NCBI RefSeq assembly: GCF_003428625.2
Contig: NZ_QVQT02000004.1
Coordinates: forward strand, 1-64,000
From: Paracidobacterium acidisoli
GTDB taxonomy: Bacteria > Acidobacteriota > Terriglobia > Terriglobales > Acidobacteriaceae
Reading direction: 5' to 3'
DNA length: 64,000 nucleotides
Positions 11,881 to 20,006 of the stretch are shown piece by piece. A program made the position numbers and the translations under genes. Within the stretch, counting starts at the first letter, position 1; the number at the start of each line of letters is the position of its first letter. Under the pieces are notes generated by a model that worked only from the letters and a program-made list of their open reading frames with translations, was not told the DNA's origin and ran no database searches.

Positions 11881-12189
11881 CTACCCAGGTCGCATCGTGG
11901 AGTTATCCCTGCTATTGCCAATTCGATTCTCGTGTGGATTGCCCGTACCTAAAGACACACCATTACTTACATCTAATTGTGCGCCCGGGGTAGTTGTCCC
12001 TGTCCCGACCTGACTGCCCGAGACCGCAATGAGCGCGTTACCAACCGTGGAGGTTCCCGTAAACACCGGGGCTGTACCGGTTGTGCCTGAACCTGCCACT
12101 GCCTGCGCCCGCGCACTCACCGCAAACACCACGATGCATATTGTCACTGTCACCACCTCGCCGAGACTTCCCTTGTCACAAAACGTCAT
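11881..12189 (-). pseudogene. Truncated remnant of a secreted tail-fibre-like repeat protein
   Basis: About 102 residues. A hydrophobic signal-like segment ending ARAQ is followed by GTTGTAPVFTGTSTVGNA, AVSGSQVG and TTTPGAQLDV, patterns seen at the start of long acidobacterial and phage proteins with GIGTTxPxAxL repeats and C-terminal chaperone (S74-type) domains. Here the frame ends soon after the first repeat, so the body is missing. The start is uncertain (the frame is open to 12312; ATG at 12189 fits the signal peptide). It lies directly after the tRNA gene, in more AT-rich sequence, and is best read as leftover from a rearrangement. Confidence 0.45.
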
Positions 12190-12322
12190 TAGATTGTCAT
12201 TTCTTTGGACGGGTAGCCGGGTTCGCCGCTTACCACTCCCTGGGCGTTCTTTAATGAGAGAGGGCCGCTGCGGTCTGTTCTTGTTCCGCCGCGTATCACT
12301 GCGAATCTCCAAAAAGGGACAT

Positions 12323-13111: not shown

Positions 13112-13341
13112 GTCGGTTCTGTTTATAGATACCGCGTCATTATGTAGCCGATATAGCAGCCGTAGTCCGGTATCTCCCAGTCCTGGGGGAGTCGGCGGTG
13201 ATGTCATCCCGACGTTCATCCTTGCATTGACGTACGCTTTCCTGGACACGGCAATGCGGCCATCAGGGCTTCTCAAAGCGATTCCGGCAGCCTGTGAAAC
13301 AGCAATCGGGTATGATCCCTGTGATGTCAGGAGGGGGATTC
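13112..13341. other. Intergenic tail of the atypical patch
   Basis: About 230 AT-richer bases between the FkbM gene and the glutathione peroxidase. No gene or repeat was recognised; composition returns to normal near 13340. Confidence 0.4.
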
Positions 13342-13893
13342 GTGCGCAGATTTGCTTTCATTCTTGCGTTCTGCCTGGCGGGGAGCGCGATGGCCGCGTC
13401 CACCGGCAGTGTTTATAACTTCACGCTGAAGTCGATTGATGGGCAGCCGGTCAGCCTGTCGTCGTATCACGGCAAAGTGCTGCTGCTGGTCAACGTCGCC
13501 AGCCACTGCGGATTTACGCCACAGTATGCGGCGCTCGAATCGGTGTATGAGAAATATAAGGGCCGCGGCCTGGTCGTCATCGGCGTTCCGGCAAACAACT
13601 TTGCCGGGCAGGAGCCAGGCACCAACGCGGAGATCAAAAAGTTCTGCACCACAAAGTACAACGTGAGCTTTCCCATGATGTCCAAAGTCTCCGTGCTGGA
13701 ACCGGACAAAGCTCCGCTCTATCAGTTCCTTACCAGTAAATCGACAGACCCGCAGTTCGACGGCGAGATCAAATGGAATTTCACCAAATTTCTGGTCAGC
13801 CGGGATGGAAAACCGCTGGCTCGTTTCGAGCCGAATGTCACTCCGGACTCGCCACAGGTGATCGCCGCGATTGACGCCGCATTGAAGCAGTAA
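13342..13893 (+). CDS. Exported Cys-type glutathione peroxidase / thioredoxin-dependent peroxidase
   Basis: 183 residues from a GTG at 13342, which has a strong AGGAGGGGG site; upstream ATGs in frame lack one. A signal peptide (VRRFAFILAFCLAG to AMA) indicates export. The peroxidase fold shows NVASHCGFTPQY with the peroxidatic Cys56, the Gln-containing VPANNFAGQEPG, a second Cys at 102 (KFCTTKY) in the resolving position of thioredoxin-dependent enzymes, and the Trp motif IKWNFTKFLV. No selenocysteine TGA is present. It probably reduces peroxides in the periplasm. A hairpin follows. Confidence 0.9.
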   Translation: MRRFAFILAFCLAGSAMAASTGSVYNFTLKSIDGQPVSLSSYHGKVLLLVNVASHCGFTPQYAALESVYEKYKGRGLVVIGVPANNFAGQEPGTNAEIKKFCTTKYNVSFPMMSKVSVLEPDKAPLYQFLTSKSTDPQFDGEIKWNFTKFLVSRDGKPLARFEPNVTPDSPQVIAAIDAALKQ

Positions 13894-14058: not shown

Positions 14059-15216
14059 ATGTCCAGCCCTGCCTCTACGCACACCCTCGAATCGCCGCGC
14101 ACCGCCACCTCCACCCGTCTTGTTTCGCTCGACGTGCTGCGTGGCATCACCATCGCGCTGATGATCCTCGTCAACAACAGCGGTCCGTATGCCTGGTGGC
14201 CCTTCCGTCATTCCGACTGGAACGGCTGGACACCGACTGACCTGGTCTTCCCGACCTTTCTCTTTCTCGTCGGTATCTCCATTGTTTTCTCCACCGAATC
14301 CCGTCTCAGCCGCGGCGCAACCAAAGCCAGCCTGCTCTCTCATAATGTGCGGCGCTTCGTCGTTCTCTTTCTCCTGGGCCTCGTCGTTAACGGATTCCCC
14401 TTCTTCCATCTGGCGACCCTCCGCATCTACGGAGTGCTGCAGCGCATCGCCATCTGCTTCCTCATCGGCAGCGTCCTGTATCTCTGGGACCGCCAGCGTA
14501 TCAGCAGCAAAATCACTCTCATCATCGTCGCCCTCCTCGGCTACTGGATTCTCATGCGCTGGGTCCCGGTTCCCGGCTATGGAATGCCTGTGCGCGACAT
14601 CCCCCTGCTCGACAAAAACGGCAATCTCACCGCATACATCGACCGCCACATCTTCCCCGGGCGTCTCTATGAAGGTGTTCGCGATCCAGAAGGCCTGCTC
14701 AGCGATCTGCCCTCCATGGCTACCCTGCTTCTCGGCATGCTCACCGGCATCTGGCTGCGGACAAAGCGCACCCTCGGGCAAAAATGCGCGGGCATGCTTG
14801 CCTCCGGTGTTCTTTGCATCGTGCTCGGCGAGCTCTGGAACCCCTGGTTTCCCATCAACAAAAAGCTCTGGACCAGCTCCTTCGTGCTCTTCACCGCCGG
14901 CGTCGCTCTGGTCAGCCTGGGTCTCTGTTACTGGGCGATAGAAATCAAAGGCTGGAAGAAGGGCTGGACCTTTTTCTGGCTGGTCTTCGGCACCAATGCC
15001 ATTACCGCCTATGTTATATCCGAATTACTGGCAGCCGGCCTCTGGGCCGTCCGCACCGGGCCTCATACGAGTCTTGATTACTCTATCTACCGGCACCTGT
15101 ATCAGCCCATCCATCCGCCGGTCATCGGCTCTCTGTGCTATTCCATCTCATTTGTGCTCGTCTGCTGGATTCCGGTCGTCTTCCTCTACCGGAAAAAGAT
15201 CTTCATCAAAATCTGA
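14059..15216 (+). CDS. HGSNAT-like / DUF5009 membrane acyltransferase
   Basis: 385 residues, about ten membrane segments. The start region LVSLDVLRGITIALMILVNN and the following PTDLVFPTFLFLVGISI are signatures of the heparan-alpha-glucosaminide N-acetyltransferase family, which moves acyl groups across the membrane onto sugars. In environmental bacteria the substrate is unknown, probably a cell-envelope or exported glycan amino sugar. An AGGGGAA site precedes the ATG. It is transcribed toward the oppositely oriented cytochrome gene, so the two are convergent. Confidence 0.85.
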   Translation: MSSPASTHTLESPRTATSTRLVSLDVLRGITIALMILVNNSGPYAWWPFRHSDWNGWTPTDLVFPTFLFLVGISIVFSTESRLSRGATKASLLSHNVRRFVVLFLLGLVVNGFPFFHLATLRIYGVLQRIAICFLIGSVLYLWDRQRISSKITLIIVALLGYWILMRWVPVPGYGMPVRDIPLLDKNGNLTAYIDRHIFPGRLYEGVRDPEGLLSDLPSMATLLLGMLTGIWLRTKRTLGQKCAGMLASGVLCIVLGELWNPWFPINKKLWTSSFVLFTAGVALVSLGLCYWAIEIKGWKKGWTFFWLVFGTNAITAYVISELLAAGLWAVRTGPHTSLDYSIYRHLYQPIHPPVIGSLCYSISFVLVCWIPVVFLYRKKIFIKI

Positions 15217-15234: not shown

Positions 15235-17298
15235 TCAGAATGTCTTTATGTATTCCGTCAGTGCCCGCTTGTCGTCATCCGGCAGCGTCGACCCAAAGGT
15301 GTGCCCCCGGTCCTCGACAAAATCGGGAGCATTGTCCGTCAGCAGAAAGAGCCCGTTGACATGGCCACCCGATGTGATGCGGCACAGCAGCCGGTTCAGA
15401 AAATTATCTCTGCGCAGAACCTCCGGCGGCACAGCGCCAGCATTGGCAACCACGTCAATGGGCGTATTGCGCGCAATGCACACATGACCGCCCTCCTCAT
15501 ACTCGAAAGTGCTCGCCTGCGTCGTCCGCCGAATCGTCTTCAGCCCGTCTCTCCGCTCCGGCCACAGTAGCTTCTGCATCGCGTCTTCATAAGCGGCTAT
15601 CCTCCCCGCAACCGACGGATCGCCATTGAATATCCCCAGCGAGTTGTTATGAAAAAACGGCGCCGTAGCCCACACATTGGCCAGCGTCGGCGTCCGATAG
15701 TAGCCTCTGCCGCCCCTCGCCTCCACCGGCAGCAGCTTCAGGCTCGGATGCAGCGGATCTGTCAGCCCTGAGATCTCTACCTCCGGCTGCTGCTTGTACG
15801 TCTCCGAGGAAAACTCCGCCCAGATATGCCCCGCCTGAGCATTGGTGCCCATCGCGCGCTCGCTGTTGGTGCCAATCTCTGAGACCGGATGCCTCACATC
15901 GTCTGACAGAAAGTTATCCGTCAGAAAATCCTCCTGCATCACTGCCTGACGAAACCACTCGGTCTCGGATCGTGCATCGCCCTGCGGGGGCCGCTTGCTC
16001 GAGTGGCACCTCGCGCAGTTCTCCGCGAATACCAGCTTGCCTCGCACTACCACCTGCTGATCCTTCGGCAGATATGCCGCTCCGCCATCGGCATCGGCCA
16101 GCTTCAGCGGAGCAAGCGTCCGCAGAAAAGCCTCAAGACCATTCATCCTCGCTTCGGTGTTCGTCCATCCCTCATCGCATGCGCCATCCTGTTTGCGCGC
16201 GCTTTTGGGATCGAAAACCGACTGTGGACGCTTCAGCCCGAAGACCGGATCATGCAGCGTCGTCCACACACCCGCACAGACGCCGATATTCACATACACG
16301 CGCAGCGCAGCGCACGCCGTGTCGTCCACGCCCGGCTTCGGCGTCGGATCATCCAGACACGCCGACCCCACCGAATCCGAGCCGTCTTTCAGCACGTGAT
16401 ACACCTCGCGCGTCACGCCGTCCGCCGTCACCTCTTTGAACTTCGGCCGGTCGTTCAGATTCGCAATGTTGTTAATCACATTCGGATTGTTGATGTGATC
16501 GGTCGCAACCTGAGAAGTATCCGACGTTCCCGGCGGCTGCGCCTGCGCCACCTGCCATCGAAAGTCGCTCGCCTTCAGCCCTCTCTTCGGCGGATACTTC
16601 GCCGTAAAGAACAGCTGTTCGCGAAAATACTGGTTGCCGATTCCCGGAAACAGATTGTGCCATTGCGGATTCTCCGGATCGGCCGGCGGATGCAGCGGAT
16701 TGAATCCCACATGGCAGAAGCCGCACGCAATGCCGATCAGATACGGCGGTTCCATCGTCGCCGGATCGGCCATGTACTTCTTCACATCCCACTCGGACTC
16801 TTTGAACTTCGGATTGCGGAACTTCCTCAGCCCCATCACACCCGTCGGCTCTCCCGGAATATCCGGAATCTGCGGCACATCCGGACTCGAACAGTCATCC
16901 ATCCACAATCCATACTGATCCGCGTGCGTCGCCTTCATGCAGTCCGGGTCGCTGATCACGCCAAAGCGCCGGAAGCGCTCGCCGCGATATCGCGAATCGA
17001 CCGCCTGCAGCAGATCAAATTCGCCATGAGATTCCACCGCAAGAAACCGCCACAGCGCCTGATCGCCCACAACTGACTTGCCGGACGCATCCACATCGCC
17101 GCCCGTCCAGAAGTACCAGGTATCGCGCCCGTGCATCTGCAGCGGAGTCAGCCCGGCATAGCTCGACTGATAGCAGCTGCTCCTGCCGCTCGGACAGGGA
17201 TAGGTATTCTGCGCCCAGGTGGTGAAACCACCGGTCGCCGCCGCGGCGGCCAGTATCACACCGGCAGCCCGAATAAGGAGAGATCGTTTCAGGTGCAT
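15235..17298 (-). CDS. RoxA-like di-heme cytochrome c (oxygenase/peroxidase family)
   Basis: 687 residues with a signal peptide (cleavage near TWAQ). Two covalent heme sites are seen: CGFCH at 192-196 and CARCH at 428-432. Length, signal peptide and the place of the first heme site closely resemble the rubber oxygenase RoxA (about 680 residues, first heme near 191-195), a dioxygenase cleaving poly(cis-1,4-isoprene); RoxA belongs to the CcpA/MauG superfamily. Further features are MHGRDTWYFWTGGD, QALWRFLAVESHGEFD and, near the C-terminus, YYRTPTLANVWATAPFFHNN. A general di-heme peroxidase role is the alternative. It is divergent from an FAD-linked oxidase, a possible partner. Confidence 0.72.
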   Translation of the reverse strand: MHLKRSLLIRAAGVILAAAAATGGFTTWAQNTYPCPSGRSSCYQSSYAGLTPLQMHGRDTWYFWTGGDVDASGKSVVGDQALWRFLAVESHGEFDLLQAVDSRYRGERFRRFGVISDPDCMKATHADQYGLWMDDCSSPDVPQIPDIPGEPTGVMGLRKFRNPKFKESEWDVKKYMADPATMEPPYLIGIACGFCHVGFNPLHPPADPENPQWHNLFPGIGNQYFREQLFFTAKYPPKRGLKASDFRWQVAQAQPPGTSDTSQVATDHINNPNVINNIANLNDRPKFKEVTADGVTREVYHVLKDGSDSVGSACLDDPTPKPGVDDTACAALRVYVNIGVCAGVWTTLHDPVFGLKRPQSVFDPKSARKQDGACDEGWTNTEARMNGLEAFLRTLAPLKLADADGGAAYLPKDQQVVVRGKLVFAENCARCHSSKRPPQGDARSETEWFRQAVMQEDFLTDNFLSDDVRHPVSEIGTNSERAMGTNAQAGHIWAEFSSETYKQQPEVEISGLTDPLHPSLKLLPVEARGGRGYYRTPTLANVWATAPFFHNNSLGIFNGDPSVAGRIAAYEDAMQKLLWPERRDGLKTIRRTTQASTFEYEEGGHVCIARNTPIDVVANAGAVPPEVLRRDNFLNRLLCRITSGGHVNGLFLLTDNAPDFVEDRGHTFGSTLPDDDKRALTEYIKTF

Positions 17299-17650
17299 GA
17301 ACGTGCTGCCCCTTCAGGAGAGAGTTCCGGCGCTCGGAGCAACTCCCCATCTCCTGACCGGCGTCATCCTACCACACGTCCTCACATCCGGCTTGACTTT
17401 GTTCCACCCCGTCCTGTACTTTCGCCCCGTTCCTGCCGGATCGTTTCGTCCGGATGCTTGCATCACCCGTCTCCTCTTCTTCTCAACCGGGTTCGCGTCC
17501 AGTCGTCCGTCCGGTTCGCTCCACGAGACGGCGGCAGATAGCTCTATCGCTCATCTGCCCAGGCATCGCCAGACAGAACAGATCCGTTGCACTGCTCCGC
17601 ATTGCCATCTTTCGCAATCCCCGGCGCCACGCGCTCAGGAGGTTCCGTTC
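17299..17650. other. Divergent intergenic region between cytochrome and FAD oxidase genes
   Basis: About 350 bases without a convincing gene; the oxidase frame happens to stay open through it. It contains a candidate rightward promoter (17393-17422) and the AGGAGG site of the oxidase at its right end. Confidence 0.5.
17393..17422 (+). promoter_or_regulatory. Candidate promoter for the FAD-linked oxidase
   Basis: TTGACT (17393-17398) and TACTTT (17417-17422) are separated by 18 bases. The -35 matches consensus at 5 of 6 positions and the -10 at 3 of 6. It would give a leader of about 220 bases. Confidence 0.35.
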
Positions 17651-19003
17651 ATGTCCGCTGCCACCGTAACCAACTGGTTCGGCAACATTGTTTCCCATCC
17701 CCAGGTCATCGTTGACGCCAATTCGGTCGACGACATCATCGCCGTCTTCAAAAATCCCTCCACCTACCCCTCTCCCGTTCGCGCCGTCGGGTCGAACCAT
17801 TCCACCGCCCCCTGCGGCGTCGCCGAAGGGGGAACCCTGATTCGCATGAAGATGAATCAGATCCTCAACATCGGTCCCGACACCCTCACCGTTCAGGCCG
17901 ACGCCATTCACCTCGACATGGCGAAGGCGCTCGAAGCCAAAGGCATGCAGTTCTACGTGAACACTGAAATCGGCAGGCTCTCCGCCGGCAGCGCCGCATG
18001 CGCCGGAACCAAGGACGCCTCCTTTGCCGGCGAGTATGGACAGGTAGGCTCCTACATCGTTGGCGTCAAAATGGTGCTTCCCAATGGAGATCTTCTCGAA
18101 GTCACCGAAGCCGAACAGCCCGAGCTGATGCAGAAGGTGCGCTCCAGTTATGGCCTCTTCGGCATCATCTACGAAGTCACCTACAAAATCCGCCGTCTTC
18201 TGCCTATGGCTGTGCACCATACAACTTACAGCCTGCAGGATTTCCTCAGCGCTCTGCCCGATCTGAAAGCCCTCGGCTATTCGATGATGTTCTACATCTT
18301 TCCCTTCGACAACAAAATCACCGTCGAATACCGCAAATACAATCCCGGAGCCACCGGCGAACCCAACCGCTGCGCCTGGGCGCTGCGCAATCATATCTGG
18401 GGCACTTCAGGCCCTAAGCTCGGCCATGATGTCGAGCAGAACTTCTCTGTTCCCTCCATCCGCTATGGCATCATCGACGCCTTCAACGCAGCCTGGCGGC
18501 TCCAGCTTGAGAACATCGTCGTCAGCGACTACACCATCCCCGGCGATCAGATCATTCACTACCCCACCGTCTCCGACGACAGCCGCTACACCTTCAGCCT
18601 CTTCGCCTTTCCTGAAGAGGAATACCCCGCAGCCCTTACCGACTTCTTCAAATTCTGCACCGACTACTACAGGCAGAAGGGCTACCGCTCCAACCTGCTC
18701 TATGTCGGCTACCGCATCGCGCAGGATCAAAAGGCTCTGCTCTCGTATTCATGGAACGGCACCGTCATGACCATCGATCCCGTCTCCACCGCCAATCCCG
18801 GCTGGGACGACTTCCTCACCGCCTATAACCAGTTCTGTGTGGATCGCAACGGCTGTCCGCTTCTCAATCAGACTCCAGGCCTCACCGCTGCCATAGTGCA
18901 GAAGGCCTTCGGTGACCGTCTTAAAACACTCGAGGAAACGCGCAGACAATACGACCCTGAAAATCGTCTGCTCAATGATTACTTCCGCACTCTGCTGTCG
19001 TAG
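17651..19003 (+). CDS. FAD-linked oxidase, VAO / aldonolactone-oxidase family
   Basis: 450 residues from the ATG at 17651, preceded by AGGAGG at ideal spacing. The N-terminal half is a PCMH-type FAD-binding domain: VRAVGSNHSTAPC, then VNTEIGRLSAGSAACAGTKD for pyrophosphate binding and SYIVGVKMVLPNGDLLEV. The C-terminal half resembles the sugar-lactone oxidase substrate domain and ends with the typical YDPENRLLNDYF. It probably oxidises an alcohol or lactone with O2 or another acceptor. It is divergent from the di-heme cytochrome, a possible electron partner. No signal peptide is seen, so it acts in the cytoplasm. Confidence 0.85.
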   Translation: MSAATVTNWFGNIVSHPQVIVDANSVDDIIAVFKNPSTYPSPVRAVGSNHSTAPCGVAEGGTLIRMKMNQILNIGPDTLTVQADAIHLDMAKALEAKGMQFYVNTEIGRLSAGSAACAGTKDASFAGEYGQVGSYIVGVKMVLPNGDLLEVTEAEQPELMQKVRSSYGLFGIIYEVTYKIRRLLPMAVHHTTYSLQDFLSALPDLKALGYSMMFYIFPFDNKITVEYRKYNPGATGEPNRCAWALRNHIWGTSGPKLGHDVEQNFSVPSIRYGIIDAFNAAWRLQLENIVVSDYTIPGDQIIHYPTVSDDSRYTFSLFAFPEEEYPAALTDFFKFCTDYYRQKGYRSNLLYVGYRIAQDQKALLSYSWNGTVMTIDPVSTANPGWDDFLTAYNQFCVDRNGCPLLNQTPGLTAAIVQKAFGDRLKTLEETRRQYDPENRLLNDYFRTLLS

Positions 19004-19031
19004 AAGCTCCCTCCCCAGTCTGCGGCGTGCC

Positions 19032-20006
19032 TTACTGGTGCGCCGCAGAGCCCGTGGCATGTCCGCAGAACGCATGCCACAGGGGTCGCCCTGACGCCTT
19101 CCAGCGCTTCACGATCTCGTAAACAATCACCGTCGCATATGTCACCGCGACCCAGAGAAAGACCTCTTCGATCGGCAGTCCTGACCACGCCGTCACATGG
19201 AGACCAATAATCTGCCCATTCTGAAAGCCCCACCATCCATACGGCAGCGCCAGCGTCACCTCCCACATCAGGCTCACCAGCAGCATCAGAAACATCGTCA
19301 GGCTCAGAGCGCGCCAGTTGATAAATGGTCTCGCCGAAGGCAGCAGCAGGCCCGAAGGCAGCAGCGCCACCAGCACCAGAAACAGAAAGTATCCCGGCAA
19401 TCCCGCCGGATCGACGGAAAAGAGCTTCTTGTACGCGATGCCGGCCGCGATCAGCACCACTGCAATCGCCAGCGACCACGGATGCACATGCAGCAGCCGG
19501 TCGAACGTGATCCGAGACTCCGCCGTGGCCGGCACGCTGTAAGCCGCCAGCCAGTACTCATCGAACCAGATATAAAGCAGCAGCACCGCCAGAAAGCCAG
19601 TGAAGTAGAAGATGTACTCTTCCACAGGAACACTGTGCCCCAGCGCCGGCGCGCCAATCCCCAGCGTCGCGCCCGCATTCGGAAAGACAAAGAAATACTG
19701 CGCGAAGAAGAAATCCAGCAGCGCGCCCAGCGGAAAAAGCAGAACAATCGTCCACCAGAAGGCGTGCCGCGAAAACTTTACCTCTTCACTTGGCAGAAAC
19801 CAGAACGCGATCACCAGCACCGGGATGATGAAGAGCAGCAGGCTCACCGTATATCCGTACGGCGACGGCTGAGGAAGCAGAGGCACGGCTGCAGGCACAA
19901 CCCGAACACGGTGCAGCGTCAGCGCAGCCGGTACAGCAACCATGCAAAACATCGCTATCACCAGCCTCAAGCTGGTGCGCGGAGATGGATTCTGTGAAGC
20001 GGGCAT
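19032..20006 (-). CDS. Lycopene-cyclase-domain membrane protein (CrtYc/CrtYd-like fusion)
   Basis: 324 residues, about eight membrane segments. Two copies of the membrane PxEE motif of CrtYc/CrtYd-type lycopene cyclases are visible: VPVEEYIFYF (Glu129-Glu130) and LPIEEVFLWV (Glu280-Glu281), one in each half. This arrangement resembles fused heterodimeric cyclases, in which both subunits contribute acidic pairs to beta-ring formation. Enzymatic function is inferred from the motifs only; no phytoene synthase or desaturase is in the window. The stop is 28 bases from the end of the convergent FAD oxidase gene. Confidence 0.65.
   Translation of the reverse strand: MPASQNPSPRTSLRLVIAMFCMVAVPAALTLHRVRVVPAAVPLLPQPSPYGYTVSLLLFIIPVLVIAFWFLPSEEVKFSRHAFWWTIVLLFPLGALLDFFFAQYFFVFPNAGATLGIGAPALGHSVPVEEYIFYFTGFLAVLLLYIWFDEYWLAAYSVPATAESRITFDRLLHVHPWSLAIAVVLIAAGIAYKKLFSVDPAGLPGYFLFLVLVALLPSGLLLPSARPFINWRALSLTMFLMLLVSLMWEVTLALPYGWWGFQNGQIIGLHVTAWSGLPIEEVFLWVAVTYATVIVYEIVKRWKASGRPLWHAFCGHATGSAAHQ

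Follow-up and report, generated by a model that had tools for sequence, protein, structure and literature searches.

Three genes lie side by side at positions 15235-20006 of the 64,000-nucleotide stretch of Paracidobacterium acidisoli DNA analysed here (hereafter the window), encoding a di-heme c-type cytochrome, a flavin oxidase and a lycopene-cyclase-like membrane protein, and a sequence-only reading had proposed that they jointly process one isoprenoid or carotenoid-like compound. The locus thus raises the question of which of these genes work together, and on what kind of substrate. We conclude that the functional unit is the divergent pair of cytochrome (15235-17298) and oxidase (17651-19003), an outlying piece, or satellite, of a widespread oxidation locus, and that the cyclase-like gene looks like an ordinary neighbour outside this unit. 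The cytochrome and the oxidase belong to a widespread and apparently undescribed type of bacterial oxidation gene cluster, and our best guess for both cluster and pair is a lipid-oxidation pathway, with a probability of about 0.4.

The divergent cytochrome-oxidase pair

The features of the locus are as follows.

15235-17298, minus strand: di-heme c-type cytochrome with the MauG/RoxA/di-heme peroxidase fold, exported, 687 amino acids; heme motifs at 192-196 and 428-432, a His of the MauG type at 550, Lys304 where RoxA has Trp302, and His666 as the likely second ligand to the C-terminal heme
17299-17650, no strand: spacer between the divergent starts; contains GGCTTGACTTT, common to the spacer of the same pair in genome G302, a possible -35 region of an oxidase promoter
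17651-19003, plus strand: VAO/PCMH flavin oxidase, 450 amino acids, no signal peptide by eye; assigned by PF01565 (59.0 bits, cut-off 26.4) and homologues
19032-20006, minus strand: lycopene-cyclase-domain-like membrane protein, 324 amino acids; convergent neighbour, judged outside the unit (TIGR03462 32.9 bits, cut-off 39.4; PF18916 24.4, cut-off 27; unlinked in 14 other loci)

The two CxxCH sites of the cytochrome read CGFCH and CARCH, and its N-terminus resembles a signal peptide by eye. The oxidase frame is open from 17219 to 19003, with the ATG at 17651, which follows AGGAGG, as its likely start; four homologues taken from script-called genes align from the same position. The starts of the cytochrome and oxidase genes are separated by a 352-base spacer, and the 28 bases between the oxidase and the membrane protein lie between the stops of two convergent genes. 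Since the latter two genes converge, no single operon is possible, and only the divergent cytochrome and oxidase can share a control region. The gene products themselves had been read correctly from the sequence, namely the 687-residue protein with its two heme sites, the divergent VAO-type flavin adenine dinucleotide (FAD) oxidase and, 28 bases on, a membrane protein with two PxEE motifs. As for the spacer, a consensus scan reported no promoter at the TTGACT stretch shared with G302, and the promoter reading of that stretch was set aside.

Membership of the oxidase in the VAO/PCMH group was given by its FAD_binding_4 domain (PF01565), the score of which exceeded the cut-off, and its C-terminal ALO domain (17.7 bits against 23.1) and TIGR01679 (89.2 against 292) remained below theirs. 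His50 within VGSNHS is a candidate site of covalent FAD attachment, judging from related oxidases.

Two samples were used, with some genomes common to both (e.g. L057 and G256, which appear to be the same genome): 396 Acidobacteriota genomes, and a scan of species genomes with two peptide patterns, from which the best 80 of 327 confirmed relatives of the cytochrome were kept as loci (L024-L103). Selected in this way, the 80 loci do not represent a random sample. The cytochrome family (E up to 1e-30) was found in 19 of the 396 Acidobacteriota genomes, and close homologues of the oxidase (E up to 1e-60) in four, namely the genome of the window, G034, G249 and G302, all four of which hold the cytochrome family as well (P 4e-6; kinship is ignored in this and every other co-occurrence P value). 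G034, G249 and G302 are all of one genus. In G302, of another genus than the window, the divergent pair is kept with 312 bases between the starts. In G034, the oxidase lies within the cluster of another, distant cytochrome clade; G249 likewise has it in such a cluster, and the cytochrome of G249 is on a separate contig. A rare oxidase gene thus accompanies two distant branches of the cytochrome family, which we regard as the best evidence that the two proteins work together. The genes are also found convergent in L024 and three genes apart in L098; these two loci were found via the cytochrome and therefore do not constitute independent evidence of pairing.

Within the clade of the window cytochrome, three of the six loci have the oxidase next to the cytochrome, and L025 gives no decision, as its contig ends inside the gene. 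Among 72,556 plasmids, the only match to the oxidase at E 1e-20 was a 44% identical homologue on a Qingshengfaniella plasmid, where its neighbours are a CytoC_perox protein, a remote relative (28%) of the 146-amino-acid protein described below, a hydrolase and a YRLH-bearing member of the animal-heme-peroxidase family; that plasmid yielded no cytochrome of the window family. Taken together, the pairing of cytochrome and oxidase is near certain to be real.

A recurrent cluster around the cytochrome

The neighbourhoods of the 80 loci were compared over flanks of up to 10 kb, and since many contigs were shorter, the neighbour counts are understated. Genes were called by a simple script, and in 6 of the 80 loci it called none for the cytochrome. 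One or more recurrent companion families were present in 64 of 80 loci: a GMC oxidoreductase in 46, a 146-amino-acid protein in 30, CytoC_perox (NF040606) in 18, a catalase-like protein in 17, a protein of about 430 amino acids in 17, a DyP-like protein in 15, an OYE-type protein in 14, a patatin-like phospholipase in 11 and the VAO oxidase in 2. Furthermore, CytoC_perox (18 loci) and the DyP-like/catalase-like proteins (19 loci) were mutually exclusive, with none of the 80 loci holding both.

The assignments of these companions differ in firmness. The GMC, patatin and OYE companions scored above the Pfam cut-offs, as did the tested CytoC_perox member (L088) above its own (184.9 against 150); the DyP-like companion was below its cut-off (72.6 against 100.5), 'catalase-like' is our own reading of the sequence with no library match, and neither the 146- nor the ~430-amino-acid protein has a match in Pfam or NCBIfam. 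By eye, the ~430-residue protein of L016 (9703-10998) and its relatives seem to consist of two related halves (LHFAR..ILDD and IQFARWVFLDD) flanking a membrane stretch.

The same picture was obtained within the Acidobacteriota. In a reading by eye, 16 of the 19 cytochrome-bearing genomes had at least one of the non-VAO companions near the cytochrome (a count that includes G249, whose cluster and cytochrome are on separate contigs), and 13 of 19 had the GMC oxidoreductase. The VAO oxidase was the sole companion in G302, and G256 and G377 had none. The genome of the window itself holds a distant paralogue of the cytochrome at C10:618.7 kb, on the contig of the window at a distance of about 600 kb, in a full cluster (L017, C10:609000-628900) with GMC, DyP-like, catalase-like, 432-amino-acid and 146-amino-acid genes; no VAO oxidase was found in this cluster.

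A tree of 81 rows, restricted to the cytochrome family and built by a quick method with SH-aLRT support alone, spans nine phyla (Acidobacteriota, Pseudomonadota, Cyanobacteriota, Planctomycetota, Verrucomicrobiota, Nitrospirota, Myxococcota, Bdellovibrionota and Binatota); the long rows L045, L046, L054 and L071 may be misplaced, and L048 was excluded for its bad start. The window cytochrome falls into a clade of six rows with support of 100 (window, L024, L025, L026, L057 and L146), the sister of which comprises seven rows (L027-L033, support 99), six of them with an OYE-type gene beside the cytochrome. On plasmids, relatives of the cytochrome occur in 21 of the 72,556 records, all rhizobial. 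In pRL11 of Rhizobium johnstonii 3841 (L214), the row runs OYE, CytoC_perox, 146-amino-acid protein, CytoC_perox, cytochrome and GMC, followed by a gene annotated as patatin-like, and S. fredii pSF45436e (L213) has the same row, followed by a hypothetical gene. In the Xenococcaceae cyanobacteria (L034 and L035), the cytochrome is accompanied by OYE, CytoC_perox and a 146-amino-acid-type gene. GmcA of R. leguminosarum (PMC7105596) was considered as the pRL11 GMC gene and could not be tied to it. None of the titles and abstracts listed by literature searches outside the subscription journals describes this cluster type.

Several other genes of the window were noted. Just beyond the cytochrome lie a glutathione-peroxidase-family gene (13294-13893, plus strand) and a NagX/HGSNAT-like acyltransferase gene (14059-15216, plus strand). 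Further on, an open frame at 11881-12312 (minus strand), opposite the start of an FkbM-type methyltransferase frame, has a repetitive SGTTGTAPVFTGTSTVGN-type stretch that by eye resembles a fibre-type protein fragment; it has no Pfam match.

Fold of the cytochrome and the cyclase-like neighbour

All matches of the window cytochrome in Pfam and NCBIfam were sub-threshold: RoxA-like_Cyt-c 22.3 bits (cut-off 26.7), RoxA 16.4 (1000), RoxB 20.6 (900), RoxC 24.8 (900) and CytoC_perox 46.9 (150). It had no match up to E 0.1 to PF03150 (CCP_MauG), the family of ordinary di-heme peroxidases, nor did its genome contain one up to E 0.001, and the earlier view that the protein is no ordinary CcpA peroxidase thus held. 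The predicted structure had a predicted local distance difference test (pLDDT) value of 83.4 and a predicted template modelling score (pTM) of 0.86. With this model, Foldseek placed MauG chains closest among the 25 rows listed (E up to 10), the best at E 5.8e-4. A second structure comparison gave Z values of 10.2 for MauG over about 260 residues, 9.8 for RoxA over 372 residues, the longest overlap, about 9.3 for di-heme peroxidases and 11.3 for hydrazine synthase; middling Z values are common by the comparison tool's own warning, and the heme motifs agree with a shared fold. Because the profile scores are sub-threshold and the Z values tied, the cytochrome is best assigned, on its structural model, to the MauG/RoxA/di-heme peroxidase fold and not to RoxA itself. 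The label 'RoxA-like' therefore stood as far as the fold and fell as an identity.

The key residues were compared in two alignments, one free and one anchored, both of which excluded CytoC_perox rows outside 450-600 amino acids. For the inter-heme region we relied on the anchored alignment, which comprises 81 family rows, one RoxA stretch and 9 of the 21 CytoC_perox rows, because CytoC_perox was misplaced in the free one. Both CxxCH motifs were kept in 81 of 81 family rows. The MauG motif of RoxA and RoxB is P-Y/F-F/L/M-H-N-G-S-V-P (PMC6311187); that of the window cytochrome is PFFHNNSLG, in which His550 is present and GSVP is not. In the free alignment, the position of His550 was His in 34 of 81 rows, Leu in 36, Gln in 8 and another residue in 3. 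His666 aligned with RoxA His641, the second His on the C-terminal heme, and by alignment was kept in all 79 rows with letters there; the C-terminal end also gave a weak profile match to residues 638-662 of 4b2n (E 0.087). At the place of the inter-heme Trp302 of RoxA, for which RoxB has Val294 according to the same source, the window cytochrome has Lys304, and the family has Lys in 77 of 82 rows, Trp in three (L046, L050 and L069), Arg in one and Thr in one. This alignment is supported by L046, L050 and L069, which keep Trp within the same motif. Owing to an insertion, the position of Phe317 of RoxA/RoxB, near the O2-binding heme, was not placed.

RoxA itself scored above the cut-off in none of 28 genomes searched (that of the window and 27 others, 10 of the 28 with weak matches) and in none of 112 genomes of the phylum of the L086 genome (6 with weak matches), and for this reason the tree contains no full-length Rox sequence.

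The membrane protein is below the cut-offs of both lycopene-cyclase-domain families. Its PxEE motifs at 127-130 and 278-281 were invariant in five aligned homologues, a third at 72-75 was not, and its structural model was too poor for use (pLDDT 52.5). Homologues were present in 13 of the 396 Acidobacteriota genomes. Fourteen loci outside the window were inspected (from 12 of these 13 genomes plus two from another search; the contig of L152 measures 5.6 kb, and the caller missed the gene itself in L155), and in none of them was the cyclase-like gene near the cytochrome, near the oxidase or near any other cluster family. G034, G249 and G302 hold all three genes, with the cyclase-like one on another contig in each. 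The three-gene unit was accordingly rejected: of the proposal that the three genes act together, the recurring cytochrome-oxidase pair survives, and the three-gene neighbourhood, for which separation in close relatives had been named as a refutation, is broken up elsewhere by the distance of the cyclase-like gene from the pair.

Processing of an isoprenoid or carotenoid by the three proteins would be in keeping with the long overlap with RoxA, the weak RoxA-family profile matches and the finding that 7 of the 13 genomes with the cyclase-like gene also hold the cytochrome, where 0.62 would be expected (P 3e-7, uncorrected). Within the family of the window's organism, five genomes have both genes, with P of 0.03, 0.004 or 0.001 if 30, 45 or 60 members were sampled. 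This co-occurrence speaks against leaving the cyclase-like gene outside the unit, although kinship and genome size may have caused it. Against such processing stand the unlinked cyclase-like gene, the loss of the RoxA Trp302 and the absence of RoxA above the cut-off from the 28 genomes. The phytoene desaturase CrtI exceeded its cut-off in 3 of 15 genomes with the cyclase-like gene versus 7 of 15 without it, and in the genome of the window, which is 97% complete, the best match reached 56.8 bits against 238.1. The isoprenoid inference is therefore unsupported, and we consider it improbable.

Possible function and comparison with known systems

Several observations bear on the chemistry of the cluster. 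The patatin-like phospholipase mentioned above is a hint at lipids, as are two animal-heme-peroxidase-family proteins with YRLH in cytochrome-GMC loci (L074:14232-17093, 932 amino acids; L081:14154-16952, 953 amino acids). YRLH is close to YRWH, the tyrosyl-radical motif of linoleate-diol synthase (PMC4496055), and from their sequences both proteins are candidates for bacterial fatty-acid dioxygenases. According to the same paper, PA2077, a RoxA-like two-heme protein, dioxygenates oleate and requires both heme histidines, and the authors of the RoxC study suggest oxidation of unsaturated membrane fatty acids by the orphan group (PMC10837239). Action on fatty lipids is thus more likely than action on rubber or carotenoids.

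In the proposed pathway, the N-terminal heme of the cytochrome would activate O2 or peroxide in the periplasm and oxygenate a hydrophobic compound, for which an unsaturated fatty acyl chain is the most likely candidate, with electrons relayed by the C-terminal bis-His heme. The cytoplasmic flavin oxidase would then convert an alcohol- or lactol-type product into a carbonyl or acid with release of H2O2. Taken as a whole, the pair as a satellite of lipid oxidation is the best explanation we can offer, at somewhat less than even odds, and the lipid substrate is its weak step; the fold, the distance from RoxA, the recurrent pairing and the recurrent cluster were computed. The broader proposal, put forward a little more tentatively, is a widespread lipid-oxidation (oxylipin-type) system composed of a RoxA/MauG-fold cytochrome from which the inter-heme Trp is mostly lost, a GMC, OYE or VAO flavoenzyme, the 146-amino-acid protein and one of two non-co-occurring redox modules (CytoC_perox, or DyP-like with catalase-like), encoded both on rhizobial plasmids, among them pRL11 of strain 3841, and on the chromosomes of several phyla, with the cytochrome and VAO oxidase of the window as its satellite.

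Several points weigh against lipid oxidation by the pair. Lipid genes are absent next to the window pair, as they are next to the cytochrome in L024, L025, L026, L057 and L146; patatin occurs in just 11 and the YRLH protein in just 2 of 80 loci, and GMC and OYE, as broad families, give no indication of a substrate. The best solved relatives of the oxidase are sugar-lactone enzymes (E 6e-17 with the family profile), the oxidase was not in the flanks of L026 and L057, members of the window cytochrome clade, and the two proteins appear to reside in different compartments. RoxA was absent among the 25 Foldseek rows listed for the cytochrome model.

The cluster could instead serve peroxide defence, with the cytochrome acting as a di-heme peroxidase on H2O2 or organic peroxides, and with general redox protection as the task of the flavin oxidase and of the cluster enzymes. 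The fold shared with di-heme peroxidases and the DyP-like, catalase-like and CytoC_perox companions fit this role; however, the cytochrome has no match to the standard peroxidase family, the Trp that transfers electrons between the hemes of RoxA and relatives is Lys in most rows, and H2O2-making flavin oxidases would be odd partners for plain detoxification. We regard this role as unlikely. Less probable still, and slightly behind isoprenoid processing, is a MauG-like maturation in which the cytochrome modifies a partner protein post-translationally instead of a small molecule. The best Foldseek matches were MauG chains, and the conserved 146- and ~430-amino-acid companions could be the targets; neither of these is beside the window pair, however, the inter-heme Trp is lost in most rows, and MauG and RoxA tie in the fold scores.

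For the window, the carotenoid story thus gives way to a pair that can be assayed, and the cluster type is a larger find than the pair. Many RoxA/MauG-fold proteins that do not cleave rubber lack an assigned function, and a cluster with fixed partners, including the pRL11 row of R. johnstonii 3841, a laboratory model, offers them a testable pathway. The loss of the inter-heme Trp further raises the question of how the two hemes communicate.

Among known systems, the CarR/CrtYcd lycopene-cyclase-domain proteins resemble the cyclase-like neighbour in its two invariant PxEE motifs within a membrane protein and in the 32.9 bits to TIGR03462; it differs in being below both cut-offs and in not tracking with CrtI. 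L-galactono-1,4-lactone dehydrogenase and bacterial VAO-family FAD oxidases share the FAD domain of the oxidase and include its best solved relatives, whereas its TIGR01679 and ALO scores fall short of the cut-offs. MauG, the best Foldseek match (Z up to 10.2), is half the size of the window cytochrome, which moreover lacks a PF03150 match. The membrane-anchored di-heme CytoC_perox (NF040606, cluster member 'c3'), found beside the cytochrome in 18 of 80 loci, gave a profile-profile match over the C-terminal half of the cytochrome with a probability of 98.8; in direct scoring, the window cytochrome reached 46.9 of the required 150 bits, in contrast to 184.9 for the c3 member of L088. FadCcp of P. 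aeruginosa (10S-DOX PA2077 and 7,10-diol synthase PA2078), compared by its description in PMC4496055, is likewise exported, carries two hemes and a MauG motif and is twice the size of a peroxidase; the Trp302 equivalent is retained in PA2077, PA2078 has Ser, and the window cytochrome has Lys304. RoxA, RoxB and orphan RoxC (RoxA structure 4b2n) differ from the window cytochrome in profile (16 to 25 bits where 900 to 1000 are required), in motif (PFFHNNS for PYFHNGSVP), in Lys304 at the place of Trp302 and in its flavoenzyme partners. They are alike in the two CxxCH c-type hemes, the overall fold and the His of the MauG motif; the C-terminal GH..G...L ending resembles the His641 region of RoxA, and Trp302 is missing from RoxC, according to PMC10837239, as it is from the window cytochrome.

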